A stretch of 64,000 nt of DNA from Verrucomicrobiia bacterium (GTDB lineage Bacteria; Verrucomicrobiota; Verrucomicrobiia; Opitutales; Cerasicoccaceae): the NCBI GenBank assembly GCA_030432235.1, contig JAUIHT010000002.1:313136-377135 (forward strand), written 5' to 3'. The notes under the pieces were generated by a model. That model was given only the letters and a program-made list of their open reading frames with translations. It did not search any database and was not told the DNA's origin. Both the position numbers and the translations under genes were made by a program. Position 1 is the first letter of the stretch. The number at the start of each line of letters is the position of its first letter. Positions 1 through 30,610 of the stretch are shown one piece after another.

Positions 1-1191
1 GCCGTCCTCAACGAAACCCTTCAGGGCATTCAATTGCCCCGGCTCCAGATAGCCGCCTGCCCCGGCCAGGTAAATGATCTCCGGTTGCGGTCCGCCCGCC
101 GGCGTCATGTCCGGCTGCAGCGGCACAATCTGGAAGGAACGGTGACCGGTCTCGGCGTCGGCCATGAGGGCGTTGGCCACGAAGTCCGCCTCGACCAGCT
201 TCTGCGGCTCCTCCGCCGCGGGCAGCACCAGGCCGACCGTCAGCGGTGGCGGCGCATCGAGCCAAAGCGCGTAGGTGTTGTCCAATGCGTAATCGTCCTG
301 CCCCTCCGGCGTCGTGAGAATGAGCATGGACGGCACGGGTCGGCCCCGCTCCACCAGAAAGGCCACCGGGCGCAGCTCACCCGGCGCGAGTGTCATCTCT
401 TCGCTGGCGAGGTTGCCCAGACTGAGCGTGGCGGTGATGGCCTCGTCGGAGAAGTTGCGCACGCGCGCGATGACGCGGAGCTGATTGCCCGGCGCGGGAA
501 AAACCTCCGCCGAGACGACCCCGACATTGTCCGGGGCTTCCTTGTGAATGGGTTGGAAGTCCAGCTCAATCCCCTGGGGCAACACCGGCCAGTCACTGCG
601 GGACCAGTCGCCCGCCTGGAAGTCCGAGAGAATAATCAGCCGGGCGGATTCCCCCTCCGGCACGAACGAGAGTGCTTCGCGCAGGGCCACAGAGGGATTC
701 GAACCGGTGATGACCGGCAACAGCTCGTCGAGGTCCGGCTTTTGTCCCGGTGCGGGGGCTTGGGCGGCCAGCGCGCCGTTGGCAAAAAACACCCAGCCGA
801 TGGGCGTGCGTTGCGATACCGAATCCAGCGCCTCATCGATAATGGCCTCGGCCCGCTCCCAGGCGCCCTGCGCGCTCATGCTGGCGGATGAATCGACGAC
901 AAAGATAACCGACTCGTTTGGCTCTTCAACAGCGCCCGCGACACCGGGCTCCACCCAGCGCGGCTGCGCCAGGGCAATCACGACCGCTGCAAAAAACAAC
1001 AGGCGGAGCAGCAAAAGCAGCCAGTCGCGCGGGCTGCGGCGTCCGCGCTGCGGCAGGGCCGAACGCGTGATGAACCGTACCGAGGGGAAACGCAGCGGCG
1101 TCGCGCGCTCTTTGTTGATCAAGTGGATCAGCAACGGCGCCAGCAAACCCGCCAGCCCGGCCAGAAACCACGGTGCGCCAAAGGTCAGCAT
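1..1191 (-). CDS. BatA/aerotolerance-type VWA membrane protein (3' end cut by window edge)
   Basis: The reading frame is open from the ATG at 1191 to the left edge, so 397 codons are visible and the C-terminus is missing. The N-terminus begins MLTFGAPWFLAGLAGLL and continues into a second hydrophobic stretch with the IHLINK and PLRFPSVRF segments typical of the BatA N-terminal domain. A membrane helix rich in Leu follows at about residues 61-78. A von Willebrand A fold starts near residue 95 and has an intact MIDAS start DSSAS (Asp100, Ser102, Ser104). The start overlaps the DUF58 stop as TGATG, so the two are probably translationally coupled. In moxR-DUF58-bat clusters these proteins are thought to work in envelope stress or in metal-dependent protein assembly; the exact role here is inferred. 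Confidence 0.9.
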   Translation of the reverse strand, partial: MLTFGAPWFLAGLAGLLAPLLIHLINKERATPLRFPSVRFITRSALPQRGRRSPRDWLLLLLRLLFFAAVVIALAQPRWVEPGVAGAVEEPNESVIFVVDSSASMSAQGAWERAEAIIDEALDSVSQRTPIGWVFFANGALAAQAPAPGQKPDLDELLPVITGSNPSVALREALSFVPEGESARLIILSDFQAGDWSRSDWPVLPQGIELDFQPIHKEAPDNVGVVSAEVFPAPGNQLRVIARVRNFSDEAITATLSLGNLASEEMTLAPGELRPVAFLVERGRPVPSMLILTTPEGQDDYALDNTYALWLDAPPPLTVGLVLPAAEEPQKLVEADFVANALMADAETGHRSFQIVPLQPDMTPAGGPQPEIIYLAGAGGYLEPGQLNALKGFVEDG

Positions 1192-2096
1192 CAGGCGGTG
1201 CGCTCCCGGTGTGAAAGATATCGAGCCAAGGTATAGGCGAGCGAGTCGGTGGTGGACACGCGCAGGGTGTCCACCTGTGCCTTGGCAAAGCCGTCGTCGA
1301 GTTTTTCCAAAAAGGCGCTCATGCCAGTGCGGTAACGCTCGCGGGCGGCCTCGGGCCAGGTGGTGATTTCACTGTCGGTCTCGCTGTCGAGGAAGCGCGT
1401 CACGGTCTGCTGCGGCAGGTCGAGTTCGTCCGGGTCGAGCACCTGAATCGCCAGCACGTCACAGTGGCGGAAGCGAAACTTAGCCAGCGCCTGCGGCAAG
1501 GTGTCCTCCGCCTCCAGCATGTCCGACAGGTACACCACCAATCCGCGCTGACGCAGCTGCGTGCTGAGCGAGGACAACATAGCCTCGTGTGCGGCAGCGC
1601 CTTCGGGCTGGGCGCGGATGAGCCCTTGGAGAAATCTTTCAAACTGCCCGCTGCGGTGGCCGGGCTCCAGCGCCTCACGCATCTCCCCGCCGTAAGCGAA
1701 GAGCCCGAGGTTGTCCCCCTGCCGCTGCGCCAGGTAGGCGATGCAGGCCGCCGCGATACGCGCGTAATGCAGCTTCGAACACGGTGCGCGCTCGCCCTGG
1801 TAGTCCATCGACGCCGAGGCATCGAGAAGCACGTAGCAGTTCATGTTGGTCTCCTCCTGGTAGACCTTCGTGTACAGCTTGTCCGACCGCGCCAGCACCT
1901 TCCAGTCGACGTACTTTAAATCTTCGCCCGGGGAGTAGTTGCGGTACTGCAGGAACTCCGTCCCGAAGCCGTGAAAGAGACTGCGGTGCATCCCCGACAA
2001 AAAGCCTTCCACCGCCGAACGCGCCATCAGCGCAAGGCTCCCCATCCCGGCGAGCGTCGCGGGGTCCAGAAGGTCACGATGGGAGGAGGTGGGCAT
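1191..2096 (-). CDS. DUF58 domain protein (MoxR-associated)
   Basis: This 301-residue protein has the DUF58 core YSPGEDLKYVDW at residues 54-65, followed by a VWA-like start LLDASASM with Asp92, Ser94 and Ser96. The family normally sits beside moxR and bat genes and is thought to act with the MoxR AAA ATPase. The ATG at 2096 (MPTSSHRDLL) is chosen because the frame upstream is low-complexity, and because a second copy of the same first 22 codons sits at 2560-2625 with its own ATG. The gene is therefore complete although its original 5' end was split off by an insertion. It overlaps the downstream batA start by one base. Confidence 0.93.
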   Translation of the reverse strand: MPTSSHRDLLDPATLAGMGSLALMARSAVEGFLSGMHRSLFHGFGTEFLQYRNYSPGEDLKYVDWKVLARSDKLYTKVYQEETNMNCYVLLDASASMDYQGERAPCSKLHYARIAAACIAYLAQRQGDNLGLFAYGGEMREALEPGHRSGQFERFLQGLIRAQPEGAAAHEAMLSSLSTQLRQRGLVVYLSDMLEAEDTLPQALAKFRFRHCDVLAIQVLDPDELDLPQQTVTRFLDSETDSEITTWPEAARERYRTGMSAFLEKLDDGFAKAQVDTLRVSTTDSLAYTLARYLSHRERTA

Positions 2097-2100
2097 GGGG
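2031..2100 (-). repeat. Direct repeat copy A (5' end of DUF58)
   Basis: These 70 bp cover the start codon and first 22 codons of the DUF58 gene. They match 2560-2629 at 65 of 70 positions by hand alignment. The pair brackets a 459-bp inserted segment, so this copy restores a complete DUF58 start downstream of the insertion. Confidence 0.9.
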
Positions 2101-2205
2101 ATTAGTCTCTCACAAAGGCCCAAAGGCGCGAATGTTTTACCACGAGGGTACCGAGATGAACCCATGAGACATTAAGGATACGAAAGATGCTTACATCGTT
2201 ATTTG

Positions 2206-2420
2206 AACCCCAACGGGGTTCCATCCGATAGCGAAGGGTTGAGTGAGCGAAGCGAATGAAACCCTGGCACAATGCACCCCACCAACCCATCAACCCCAAC
2301 GGGGTTGCATCGTCCTCGCACACAGACGTAATGCAACCCCGTTGGGGTTGGCAGGTAAACGCGCCTGAATACCCAGGGTTCAAGAACCCTTCGCTATGAG
2401 ATGAAACCCCGTTGGGGTTT
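2206..2420. repeat. Palindromic repeat cluster with CCCCAACGGGG core
   Basis: Four copies of an AACCCCAACGGGGTT-type palindrome lie near 2206, 2290, 2333 and 2404. The inner pair, CAACCCCAACGGGGTTGCAT and its exact reverse complement, forms 20-bp inverted arms at 2291-2310 and 2331-2350. The outer pair extends into flanks containing GATAGCGAAGGGTT and AACCCTTCGCTAT, again in inverted order with few mismatches. The unit is a larger inverted repeat inside the insertion that split DUF58. The last copy is followed by T residues and could also end transcription. No protein is supported here. Confidence 0.8.
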
Positions 2421-2439
2421 TTATGGGCGCAATCTAACA

Positions 2440-2625
2440 TCATTTCAATAAACGCCTCCTCAGCTCATCCATGGTGAGAAAACGCGCTTCACCGGATTTG
2501 ATTTTACGGCGACGTTCGGCGAGCACCTTACCGTACCAACCAGGCGACTTTGTGTCTTGCGCAAGGCTCCCCATCCCGGCGAGCGTCGCTGGGTCCAGAA
2601 GGTCACGATGGGTGGCGGTAGGCAT
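2440..2625 (-). CDS. Chimera: DUF58 N-terminus fused to an antitoxin C-terminus
   Basis: This frame of 61 codons starts with MPTATHRDLLDPATLAGMGS, the old DUF58 N-terminus. It then switches after residue 22 to SPGWYGKVLAERRRKI and SGEARFLTMDELRRRL. The second part looks like the C-terminal end of addiction-module antitoxins of the TIGR02574/PF09720 type, which share a W-x-x-x-L-x-x-R pattern and SGEA-x-F. No toxin gene is adjacent. The moxR promoter and the retained DUF58 start could express it, but it may be a non-functional remnant of an insertion. The frame and fusion are visible; the antitoxin assignment rests on motif resemblance. Confidence 0.5.
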   Translation of the reverse strand: MPTATHRDLLDPATLAGMGSLAQDTKSPGWYGKVLAERRRKIKSGEARFLTMDELRRRLLK

Positions 2626-2629
2626 GGGC
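2560..2629 (-). repeat. Direct repeat copy B (original DUF58 5' end)
   Basis: This is the upstream copy of the 70-bp duplication and includes an ATG at 2625. It lies on the moxR side, so it is probably the ancestral start of DUF58 and now begins the antitoxin chimera. Confidence 0.88.
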
Positions 2630-2650
2630 GGTGAGGCAGATTAGTTGTTT

Positions 2651-2670
2651 ACCACGGAGACACGGAGATT
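2651..2670. repeat. Iterated-word repeat, left arm (CCACGGAGACACGGAGA)
   Basis: ACCACGGAGACACGGAG abuts the stop codon of the small membrane-protein gene at 2670. The reverse complement occurs at 3039-3064, just before that gene's start, so the two inverted copies bracket it. Confidence 0.85.
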
Positions 2671-3032
2671 TAATTCTCAAGATTCCAATGACGCAGATCA
2701 CCGTATTTAGAGCGCCGTCTAAATATTAGAACGTTGGCAAGTGCCTTAGCAAAGGCTGCACCAGCAATTATCGAGTAGAAAAGTCCTGAGCCTGATAATA
2801 TAAGGAACAAAAGCAGTAGAGAGGATGCGACAAGTGCAACAATGACTCTCACTGATTCTGGAATACGAGCACGCCATGTCTTCAATATCCCCCCCATTGA
2901 TAGTGCAAAAATAAATAGGGCTACTGCGACTGAGGCATACAATGAAGATGAATTGTAATATGCCATATATCCGACAACAAATGAGGCCAATCCAAGAATT
3001 ATTCCGAAACCAACTGCTTGATTTACCTTCAT
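2670..3032 (-). CDS. Small membrane protein, unknown function
   Basis: The ATG at 3032 gives a 120-residue protein (MKVNQAVGFGIILGLASF). It has about four hydrophobic segments: residues 6-24, 30-48, 62-80 and 82-100. It ends in a basic tail with FRRRSKYGD. The frame continues upstream of 3032 but there it is Arg/Pro-rich antisense to moxR, so the internal Met is preferred. Base composition is clearly AT-richer than moxR and DUF58. The gene lies between moxR and the broken DUF58 start and is bracketed by inverted CCACGGAGACACGGAGA copies. Both features suggest a late insertion into the moxR operon. No family was recognised. Confidence 0.65.
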   Translation of the reverse strand: MKVNQAVGFGIILGLASFVVGYMAYYNSSSLYASVAVALFIFALSMGGILKTWRARIPESVRVIVALVASSLLLLFLILSGSGLFYSIIAGAAFAKALANVLIFRRRSKYGDLRHWNLEN

Positions 3033-3038
3033 TATAAA

Positions 3039-3064
3039 CCTCTGTGCTCTCCGTGTCTCCGTGG
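3039..3064. repeat. Iterated-word repeat, right arm
   Basis: CTCTCCGTGTCTCCGTGG is the reverse complement of the copy at 2651-2670. An extra CTCTGTG unit precedes it, so the word is reiterated with variation. Confidence 0.85.
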
Positions 3065-3097
3065 CAAAAAAACTCGCTGCCTCACAACCGCACTCCC

Positions 3098-4096
3098 CTA
3101 CATCCCTTTCAGCAGTTCGGCGATCAAGTCGTCGGACTTGATGCCTTCGGCTTCGGCCTGGAAGGTCGGGATGATGCGGTGGCGCAGGACGGGCGCGGCG
3201 AGCTCGCGAATGTCTTCTAACGACACGGCATAGCGGCCGTGCAGGAGGGCGCGGGCTTTTCCTGCCAACACGAGGGCCTGGGAGGCGCGGGAGCCGGCGC
3301 CCCACTTGATTTTCTCCTTGGCCAAAGTTGATGCATCACTGTGCGTGGGGCGCGAGGAGGCGGTCAGGCGGACGGCCGCCTCGGCCACCTCGGTGCTGAC
3401 GGGCACCTGGCGGACCAACTCCTGCAGGGCGACGACCTCCTCGCCGGAGAAGACCGCGGCAGGCTTTTCCTTCTTCGGGGACGTGGTGGCGGCGACCATT
3501 TTCACCTCATCAGCCACCGGAAGATAGTCCATGGTGATGTTTAAAAGGAAGCGGTCGAGCTGCGCCTCGGGCAGCGGGTAGGTGCCCTCCAGCTCGATGG
3601 GGTTCTGCGTGGCCAGGACAAAGAACGGCGGCGCGAGCGTATGCGTCTCCCCGGCGGCGGTCACCTGGCGCTCCTCCATGGCCTCGAGCAGGGCGGCCTG
3701 GGTCTTGGGCGGAGTGCGGTTGATTTCGTCGGCCAGCACGATGTTGGCGAAGATAGGCCCCTTGACGAAGCGGAAGCTGCGGTGCCCTGTGGCGGTGTCT
3801 TCCTCCACCACCTCGGTGCCCATGATGTCCGCCGGCATGAGGTCCGGCGTGAACTGGATGCGCTTAAATGATAAGGAAAAGGCCTCGGCCAGCGAACGCA
3901 CCAGCAGGGTCTTGCCCAGGCCCGGGACGCCGGTCAGCAGCGCGTGCCCCCGCGCCAGGATGCTGATAATCATCAGCTCGATGACCTCGTCCTGGCCCAC
4001 GACGGCCTTGGACAGCTCGGCCTTCAGTTTCTTGCGGGACTCGCCCACGCGAGCGACGATTTCCTCGCCGGAAAGATTTTCGGGTAACTGACTCAT
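3098..4096 (-). CDS. MoxR-family AAA+ ATPase
   Basis: The protein has 332 residues, the usual length for the family. Walker A is GVPGLGKT at residues 56-63 and Walker B is LADEINR at 121-127. The sensor region ATQNPIELEGTYPLPEAQLD is typical of MoxR, and the C-terminal lid domain is complete. MoxR ATPases act as chaperones with DUF58 and VWA partners in complex assembly and stress tolerance. It is the first gene of a minus-strand block moxR - insertions - DUF58 - batA. The ATG at 4096 (MSQLPENLSGEEI) fits family starts. Confidence 0.95.
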   Translation of the reverse strand: MSQLPENLSGEEIVARVGESRKKLKAELSKAVVGQDEVIELMIISILARGHALLTGVPGLGKTLLVRSLAEAFSLSFKRIQFTPDLMPADIMGTEVVEEDTATGHRSFRFVKGPIFANIVLADEINRTPPKTQAALLEAMEERQVTAAGETHTLAPPFFVLATQNPIELEGTYPLPEAQLDRFLLNITMDYLPVADEVKMVAATTSPKKEKPAAVFSGEEVVALQELVRQVPVSTEVAEAAVRLTASSRPTHSDASTLAKEKIKWGAGSRASQALVLAGKARALLHGRYAVSLEDIRELAAPVLRHRIIPTFQAEAEGIKSDDLIAELLKGM

Positions 4097-28438: not shown

Positions 28439-30610
28439 CTACTCACCCTGCTCAAGTGCCTTCCGGCAGAGTTCTAAACCCTTGCGTGTATTTTCTGTAC
28501 TGGGATGCCCCGCAGGCAGCTTAGCCTCAAAGATGGCTAAGGCCTGTTCTACTAGAGGCAAAGCCTCCCGGGTCTGCCCGCTTTCATACAAAAGAGATGC
28601 CAAATTGTTGTACCAAACGGCCACATCTGGATGGTCTTTGCCCAAAGTGACCTCACCAATGTCAATGGCGCGCCGAAAAAGCGGCTTGGCCTCAGCAGGG
28701 CGTCCGGTTTGTTTTAAAAGTTGGGCCAAATTGTTGAGCGTACCTGCATAACTACGCTGTGTTTCCGGCTCATTTGCCTCGAAGATTTCAATCACGCGGC
28801 GATAGAGTGGCTCGGCTTCAGCAATACGCTCGGTTTGCTTTAGAAGTAGGGCCAAATTATTGTACCAAACTGCTACATCCGGGTGGTCCTTGCCTAAAGT
28901 GGTCTCTGCTATATTGATGGCACGACGATAGAGCGGCTCAGCTTCCTCATACCGTCGAGTTTCCCGCAAGAGTTCAGCCAAATTGTTGTAATCGATGGCG
29001 ACATCAAAGTGCTCTCGGCCTAAAGTGGCCTCACCGATTTGAATAGCCCGCTGATAGAGCGACTCAGCCAGAATATAGGCTGCCCTTGCTTCGTGGTACA
29101 TACCTAAACATGAGAGCAGGCGGGCTGTTGCGGCGGGTTCTAAAGGAGAGATATTGTGCTCGCAGGCTTGAGTAGCGTGGGGCAGCAGAGGCGTTACCAC
29201 GGGCCAAGTGCGCACATCGTAGGTATCCTGTGGCATGGCTAGGTTTAGCCAGCGCAGGGCCTGGGAGAGGGTTTCGTCGCGCTGCTCGGGCGTCATTTGG
29301 GTGCGGGTGACGGCCATGAGCACGCGGTGCACGGTGAAGGCTTCGTTGTCCTCGGTGAATTTGGCCAGGCTGAAGGCGCAGAGCCGCCCGAGGGCCGCGC
29401 GGACGTCCCCGATGTTCTCCAGCAGGGGCTCGTCCGCTTCCTCGTCCGCCACTGTTTCCCCTTTGGCGGGCTCTGTTGGCTCTTCAAGTGACTGATTATA
29501 CTGCTCAAGCCTATCGATGAGGAAGCACGGGATGGGCTCGGGGGCGAACCAGGCGAGCACCCGCAGGAGGGCGGCGGCGTCGGGCCCGGCGGCGTCGATA
29601 CTGACCTGCCAGGTGACGGCGGCGGGCTCCCGAAAGGACGGGTTCGCGGGCTCAAACCAGAGCATCTCGTCCCCCTTGGCCGTGTCCCACTTGTGCAGGT
29701 ACTGGGCGAGGCTGAGGCGCTGCTCGTTTATCTGGGCGGCGGCCTGCTCCAGGCTCAGGGGCAGCCCGTCGAGCCGCTGGGCCAGCTCCGCGGCCTGCGC
29801 GGCGTCGTCCTTGGCCGGGGTGCGTTTCTCCGCCGTGCGCTTGAGCAGGAAGTCCGCCGAGTCTTTTGGCGACAGCAGGTCGATGGGCATGAGTTCGAAA
29901 GCGTCGCCGAGGTCGTCGAGGCGGGAGGTGGCCAGCACGCGCCCCCGTCCGAGCTGTGGCAGCAGCGCCTGCACGGCCGTGCGCGCCTCCGGCGTGTCGA
30001 TATTGTCCAAAATCAGCAGCCACTGGTCGTTGTCCTGAAACCATTGCAGGACCCGGTTGCGGGCGGCCGCCTGGTTTTGCTTCTCCTCCGCGGGAGCCTC
30101 CGGCACGAGCGTCTCCACCAGCTCGGCCAGCTCCTCGTCCAGCTTTTGCGGGCTTTCGGCGATGACCATCAGCCGCGCCTGGTAAGCCCAATGGTAGTGA
30201 GCCGCGTACTCGACCGCGAGCTGCGTCTTGCCAATGCCCCCGGCCCCGTGTACGGCGTCCAGCTTGTCCTTACCTACGACCGCGGACGACTTGCCCTGCT
30301 TGCCCAGCCGCCGATGCAGCTCCTTCATCGCCTCGGTGCGCCCGACGAAGTCGTCACCCCGCGAGACAATGGTGATGTTGGTCAGGGATTTTGCGGGGAG
30401 GGGCTCGGGCCAGAGCTTTTCGACATCAGGCTCTTCGGGCTTAGGTTTGATAAAATGCTCAAGAGCTTTCTTACCCAGCTCTCTAAAGAAACCTTGGAAA
30501 AAAAATCCGAGGGCAATTACGGCCATTGACACAATACCCCAAGGCGAAGTCAGCATATCCAGGATTGTTGACTCCTCAGCTTTAGCAATGAGTGGCAAAA
30601 GCGGCAGCAT
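28439..30610 (-). CDS. Membrane-anchored NB-ARC/TPR protein (STAND NTPase, NLR-like)
   Basis: The protein has 723 residues. A membrane helix (about 22-42, SPWGIVSMAVIALGFFFQGF) is followed by an NB-ARC NTPase: FVGR at 88-91, Walker A GAGGIGKT at 122-129, Walker B LLILDNID at 198-205, ATSR at 227-230 and GLPL at 282-285. A winged-helix region carries VHRVLM. From about 495 there are at least four kinesin-light-chain-type TPRs (VAWYNNLALLLKQ- and AEPLYRRAI-like). STAND proteins sense a ligand through repeats and oligomerise with ATP; several relatives serve in phage defence. An N-terminal membrane segment in place of an effector is notable. No defence gene is adjacent. Confidence 0.9.
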   Translation of the reverse strand: MLPLLPLIAKAEESTILDMLTSPWGIVSMAVIALGFFFQGFFRELGKKALEHFIKPKPEEPDVEKLWPEPLPAKSLTNITIVSRGDDFVGRTEAMKELHRRLGKQGKSSAVVGKDKLDAVHGAGGIGKTQLAVEYAAHYHWAYQARLMVIAESPQKLDEELAELVETLVPEAPAEEKQNQAAARNRVLQWFQDNDQWLLILDNIDTPEARTAVQALLPQLGRGRVLATSRLDDLGDAFELMPIDLLSPKDSADFLLKRTAEKRTPAKDDAAQAAELAQRLDGLPLSLEQAAAQINEQRLSLAQYLHKWDTAKGDEMLWFEPANPSFREPAAVTWQVSIDAAGPDAAALLRVLAWFAPEPIPCFLIDRLEQYNQSLEEPTEPAKGETVADEEADEPLLENIGDVRAALGRLCAFSLAKFTEDNEAFTVHRVLMAVTRTQMTPEQRDETLSQALRWLNLAMPQDTYDVRTWPVVTPLLPHATQACEHNISPLEPAATARLLSCLGMYHEARAAYILAESLYQRAIQIGEATLGREHFDVAIDYNNLAELLRETRRYEEAEPLYRRAINIAETTLGKDHPDVAVWYNNLALLLKQTERIAEAEPLYRRVIEIFEANEPETQRSYAGTLNNLAQLLKQTGRPAEAKPLFRRAIDIGEVTLGKDHPDVAVWYNNLASLLYESGQTREALPLVEQALAIFEAKLPAGHPSTENTRKGLELCRKALEQGE

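Follow-up and report, generated by a model that had tools for sequence, protein, structure and literature searches.

An antitoxin remnant between two copies of a DUF58 gene start in a verrucomicrobial genome points to insertion of a toxin-antitoxin operon with long target duplication

Introduction

How does a segment of DNA come to lie between two copies of the start of a gene while the gene itself stays intact? The question is raised by a locus in a 64-kb stretch of a Verrucomicrobiia genome (order Opitutales; this whole stretch is the window hereafter), in which the first codons of a DUF58 gene occur twice, on either side of 459 bp. In a preliminary description, drawn up from the letters of the window, it was proposed that the intervening segment had entered the DUF58 gene and had either carried or created a copy of its 5' end.

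The question reaches beyond a single gene. Toxin-antitoxin and restriction-modification systems are often grouped as addiction modules, and how toxin-antitoxin modules move outside plasmids, prophages, transposons and integrons is not settled; where empty and filled sites can be paired, the junctions lend themselves to counting and testing. In a large survey of type II toxin-antitoxin systems, these genes were called exceptionally mobile, and one Thermus strain was described in which a module lies inserted within an operon; neither direct repeats nor target duplication is mentioned there (PMC2701414). Restriction-modification systems have been reported to insert with long target duplication in Helicobacter pylori (Nobusato et al. 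2000, as described in PMC1643837 and PMC3031569), and all types of restriction-modification systems can insert with long, variable duplications (PMC3031569). A literature search that reached a minority of subscription journals found no paper that connects long target duplication with toxin-antitoxin modules.

Results

All parts of the locus (moxR, both copies of the DUF58 start and the DUF58 gene) read on the minus strand, in the order moxR (4096-3098), an inverted-repeat cassette (3085-2631), the upstream copy (2628-2559), 459 bp, and the DUF58 gene (2096-1191). The features are as follows.

3098..4096, minus strand: moxR, the upstream neighbour of DUF58 (PF07726, E 1.6e-63)
2631..3085, no strand: separate cassette with 38-bp inverted repeats (I2) of the CACGGAGACACGGAG type and a 120-aa membrane ORF
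2559..2628, minus strand: upstream copy of the 70-bp target, with an ATG at 2625
2440..2625, minus strand: 61-aa fusion ORF, DUF58 codons 1-22 followed in frame by an antitoxin C-terminus
2440..2558, minus strand: putative inserted PF09720 antitoxin remnant (C-terminal half), with no toxin gene after it; aligns with the complete antitoxin of locus L050
2206..2419, no strand: palindromic REP-like element of AACCCCRACGGGGTT units, in the place expected of a toxin gene; inverted repeats I1 and I3-I5
2030..2099, minus strand: downstream copy of the 70-bp target, holding the true DUF58 start and first 22 codons; 66/70 against the upstream copy
1191..2096, minus strand: ORF of the intact DUF58 gene, 301 aa, the preserved host gene (PF01882, E 8.8e-43, 146 bits)

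The direct repeat on which the preliminary description was built is real, with positions 2030-2099 and 2559-2628 agreeing at 66 of 70 bases (four differences) at a spacing of 529; the coordinates given earlier were shifted by one base and yield 65 of 70. When all 64 kb of the window were scanned with a sliding frame, this repeat ranked as the strongest bracketing repeat of its type (score 58), and the only other one is much weaker, with a score of 31 (28599-28686, its other copy lying 252 bp further on). The duplicated target begins 3 bp before the DUF58 ATG, and the start codon is present in both copies. A test for further duplicated sequence, upstream of the ATG and reaching into the inverted-repeat cassette, gave no convincing result. 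The downstream copy does open an intact DUF58 gene, as had been claimed, and orthologues of this gene were found in genomes of the same family. Compared with Rfam, the region gave no match.

Two direct copies at a distance of 529 bp are also what would be left by an ordinary tandem duplication of a 529-bp unit, composed of the DUF58 start and its upstream region, that had later diverged, had a scrap of antitoxin already lain upstream of the gene. A duplication of that kind should, however, have left the 459-bp segment ahead of the first copy as well, where the upstream-only similarity is weak (reached by 45 of 1000 shuffles) and where the sequence is that of a different inverted-repeat cassette. 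Since a relative with a filled site (locus L007, below) also shows an insertion and not a tandem repeat, we regard tandem duplication as very unlikely.

What lies between the copies points to a toxin-antitoxin operon. In the upstream copy, MPTATHRDLLDPATLAGMGSLA is followed in frame by QDTKSPGWYGKVLAERRRKIKSGEARFLTMDELRRRLLK; the ORF runs from the ATG at 2625 to a stop at 2440, and the antitoxin-like C-terminus ascribed to it earlier is borne out by a match, after codon 22, to positions 17-53 of the 54 in PF09720 (Unstab_antitox; E 2.9e-4), whose 21.2 bits fall narrowly below the curated cut-off of 23.3. Neither a toxin ORF nor a trace of a toxin was found between the two window copies. As the N-terminal half of the antitoxin and the toxin are both gone, the window copy is most simply a relic of a toxin-antitoxin pair, and the identity proposed for the module depends on 38 codons together with the analogy to locus L007. 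It is possible, judging from its open frame, that the 61-aa fusion ORF, which starts at the copy of the DUF58 start codon, yields a residual toxin-binding peptide.

Roughly half of the 459-bp spacer belongs to the REP-like element, and partial copies of this AACCCCRACGGGGTT-palindrome element occur on other contigs of the same genome. Given that it lies within the segment, and the inverted-repeat cassette beside it, one of the two might have been the mobile agent and have carried the antitoxin scrap along; the moxR-DUF58 gap of relatives indeed holds inverted-repeat cassettes with different cargo. The window cassette, however, sits between moxR and the upstream copy, as a neighbour outside the duplicated segment, and the toxin-antitoxin insertion at L007 has no REP-like element between its copies. 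We therefore consider it quite improbable that either element was the agent.

Comparison with relatives separates empty from filled sites. DUF58 loci were sought and fetched in 28 genomes; for twelve relatives, all of other genera than the window genome, its nearest relative included, the junction between moxR and DUF58 was inspected. A single DUF58 start follows moxR in 11 of the 12 (L002-L006 and L008-L013), which provides the empty site that the preliminary description led one to look for; relatives with an old tandem duplication and no empty site, which it had named as the arrangement that would count against it, were looked for and not seen. The remaining relative (L007, in genome G005 of another genus of the family; L050 of the survey below is the same place) carries what appears to be a complete antitoxin and toxin pair at the same DUF58 start. 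Here moxR is followed by an ORF, then by CCATGCCCACCACCGTTAAAGACCTCCTCGATCCCGC, by a 577-bp insert, and by the same 37 bp, which open an intact DUF58 gene. The insert opens with 44 bp, continues with a 68-aa antitoxin that scores above the PF09720 cut-off (55.6 bits) and a 103-aa ORF that shares one base with the antitoxin stop, and closes with 15 bp. With no Pfam match and no useful match among solved structures, the 103-aa ORF is called a toxin by analogy, from its size, its position and its resemblance to the ParE-type toxins of other loci. The site is empty in three congeners of L007. In one of them, L008, the empty site (GAGAATATAATCCCATG) corresponds to what precedes the first copy at L007 (GAGAAAATAATCCCATG), so the outer flanks of L007 are ancestral, as target duplication predicts. 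A long direct target duplication flanking an insert, beyond the lengths known from transposons, is thus found both in the window (70 bp, 66/70) and at L007 (37 bp, exact).

These two loci also bear on whether the copies could be the attL and attR sites of an integrase-borne element that has since been mostly deleted. SXT-type elements integrate at the 5' end of a gene (SXT at prfC), supply it with a new start and carry an integrase, and known elements that enter gene 5' ends in this way would account for a replacement start such as that of DUF58. Yet L007, the intact counterpart, holds an antitoxin and a toxin only, with no integrase, and the duplication lengths differ between the two sites (37 versus 70 bp) and vary across the other loci described below, so that site-specific integration appears very unlikely. 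The resemblance to SXT-type elements is that the host gene is rebuilt after an insertion at its 5' end; unlike them, the loci studied here show neither an integrase nor a fixed attachment core.

The sequences of the copies indicate that the two insertions did not descend from one event. The window copies agree at 62 of their first 66 coding bases, whereas each of them shares only 38-40 of 66 with DUF58 of G001 and of G005; at L007 all 37 bp are the same in the two copies. The window duplication is therefore younger than the split from the nearest relative, and of the two origins first considered for the extra gene start, carried or created, the second is the one that fits. Because the copies within a genome are far more alike than either is to any relative's gene, the insertions were independent, each duplicating its own target. 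Read from these sequences, the window and L007 insertions are separate and took place after the genera had split, unless gene conversion has kept the copies alike. In both genera the duplication begins 2-3 bp before the same DUF58 ATG.

In our view it is probable that a toxin-antitoxin operon inserted just inside the DUF58 gene, duplicating about 70 bp of its target, and later decayed. The earlier claim of an insertion that left the host gene intact stands, with the amendment that the insert is best described as a decayed toxin-antitoxin pair together with a REP-like element that either arrived later or resided alongside it.

Sequence around PF09720 loci was retrieved from genomes of the order, and direct repeats on the two sides of the antitoxin were sought at a threshold score of at least 25. 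Such repeats were found at 20 of 104 PF09720 loci versus 1 of 817 control positions, the controls being positions that overlap one another in 20-kb stretches of genomes of the order; the sole control match falls in repeated, coding-like sequence of ATPase type. Among other gene families, bracketing repeats were detected at 6/30 Phd/YefM antitoxins, 2/23 PIN-domain toxins, none of 30 glyoxalase control genes and 4/30 GxxExxY genes (PF13366), at least one of these four being the inverted-repeat element itself. The GxxExxY figure means that long duplications may not be confined to toxin-antitoxin genes. A single-protein scan covering five loci found bracketing repeats at none of them.

At first about one-fifth of toxin-antitoxin loci seemed to have long target duplications, a share that shrank once the junctions had been read. 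At six loci (L071, L094, L178, L181, L200 and L204) the repeats have, by eye, attC-like ends; these loci, set aside as target duplications, are probably integron cassettes to judge from those ends. They were removed by junction reading, the automatic core-motif test being too strict to flag them. The attC-like bracketing of toxin-antitoxin pairs at these six loci suggests that integron cassette arrays exist in the order. Also set aside were L081 and L125 (CACGGAG-type repeats), L139 (a terminator-like hairpin) and L133 and L156 (other repeats). At L118 (genome G180), the thyX start recurs as a 42-bp copy, beginning at the ATG, right after nuoN and upstream of an antitoxin gene; it was rejected as a simple 5'-end duplication, the downstream thyX having kept its ancestral promoter, and is a more complex rearrangement.

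That attC-like ends turned up in the same scan raises the question of whether the window repeats, too, are attC sites and the antitoxin a cassette gene. The window repeat is DUF58 coding sequence, however, present at a single gene start in relatives, and no attC-like end (AAC...GTT core) is visible at the window junctions; to an integron origin of this locus we accord almost no probability. Some survey loci do resemble integron toxin-antitoxin cassettes in that minimal promoter-antitoxin-toxin units lie between repeats; the repeats of integron cassettes are attC sites, whereas those at DUF58, hisC-hisB and nuoN are host coding sequence.

Seven cases at gene ends lie at or above the threshold (L050, L051, L056, L082, L084, L127 and L298), of which L082 and L084 are the least certain. 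Set against the controls, 7 of 157 toxin or antitoxin loci versus 1 of 817 gives a Fisher p of 1.7e-5, which is a guide only, as the seven were curated after the data had been seen and the controls overlap.

The best second case of a target-duplicating insertion is that between hisC and hisB in genome G011 (L056). There the 85-bp end of hisC recurs before hisB, and the 591 bp between the copies consist of 42 bp, a PF09720 antitoxin, a ParE-type toxin (PF05016) and 4 bp; at the empty site, seen in nine relatives, hisC runs straight into hisB. Since the second copy holds the hisB start codon and the first copy gains a new stop from the insert, with HisC ending in ...ESWLS, both genes are kept whole in G011. 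Further duplications were found at the 3' ends of nuoN (80 bp, with an insert of 568 bp), of an alpha/beta hydrolase gene (78 bp) and of an aminotransferase gene (33 bp), this last at the locus of a PIN-domain toxin. Matches to ParE_toxin were obtained for the toxins of L056 and L127.

The length of the duplication thus varies between sites (37, 70, 78, 80 and 85 bp), and the cleanest inserts (DUF58, hisC-hisB and nuoN) extend 42-44 bp upstream of the antitoxin start and 4-15 bp beyond the toxin stop. The minimal inserts examined contain antitoxin and toxin ORFs only, with no transposase or integrase gene, and terminal inverted repeats did not exceed the shuffled level in the 12 inserts compared. 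The tight ends could reflect the true unit of movement or later trimming.

Discussion

In this study, we examined how the start of a DUF58 gene came to be duplicated around an inserted segment, and the history that we propose begins with a type II toxin-antitoxin operon that encoded a PF09720 antitoxin and probably a ParE/RelE-type toxin. A fragment of little more than this operon may have been joined into a break with widely staggered ends, the least certain step of the model, and fill-in of those ends would copy the target; template switching during break repair would be an alternative route of joining. The downstream duplicate and the remaining gene would then make up a complete DUF58, the upstream duplicate being left as a stub. 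Selection would keep only those insertions that leave the host gene whole, and an addiction module that punishes its own loss would protect the insert. In the window, the module would later have lost the toxin and the N-terminal half of the antitoxin, and the REP-like element would have come in. The likeness to type II modules of the PF09720/ParE-RelE kind differs between the two filled sites, with an antitoxin C-terminus in the window and a complete pair at L007; unlike such modules, the window copy is without the toxin and the N-terminal half of the antitoxin.

The closest parallel is the insertion of restriction-modification systems in H. pylori, as that work is described in later papers (PMC1643837, PMC3031569). 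Shared features are an addiction-type module, no evident transposase, a long and variable target duplication, and an empty site in relatives. According to the same descriptions, the H. pylori case concerns restriction-modification genes and strains of one species, whereas in the present case the module is a type II toxin-antitoxin pair, the duplication lies at gene ends and the insert is hardly longer than the operon. The original description was of inserts that are restriction-modification systems, and those found here appear to work alike with an antitoxin and a toxin as cargo.

A broader proposal is that type II toxin-antitoxin operons themselves constitute a mobile unit of about 560-600 bp, scarcely exceeding promoter, antitoxin and toxin, that enters gene ends via long target duplication, without a dedicated recombinase, by the same route as restriction-modification systems. 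We put it forward tentatively, giving it somewhat less than even credence. If it is true, the duplication rebuilds the host gene and also permits precise loss of the insert by recombination, and long target duplication would be an insertion signature common to toxin-antitoxin and restriction-modification modules. The window locus is a decayed example, and the interest lies in its intact counterpart, L007, and in the wider pattern.

The moxR-DUF58 gap has a further peculiarity. Inverted-repeat cassettes of the CACGGAGACACGGAG type are also found there at L002, L006, L008 and L009, with differing cargo, and across the window and these relatives the cassettes carry a membrane ORF, a GxxExxY gene, another ORF, or almost nothing, as if the gap were an insertion hotspot for inverted-repeat cassettes.
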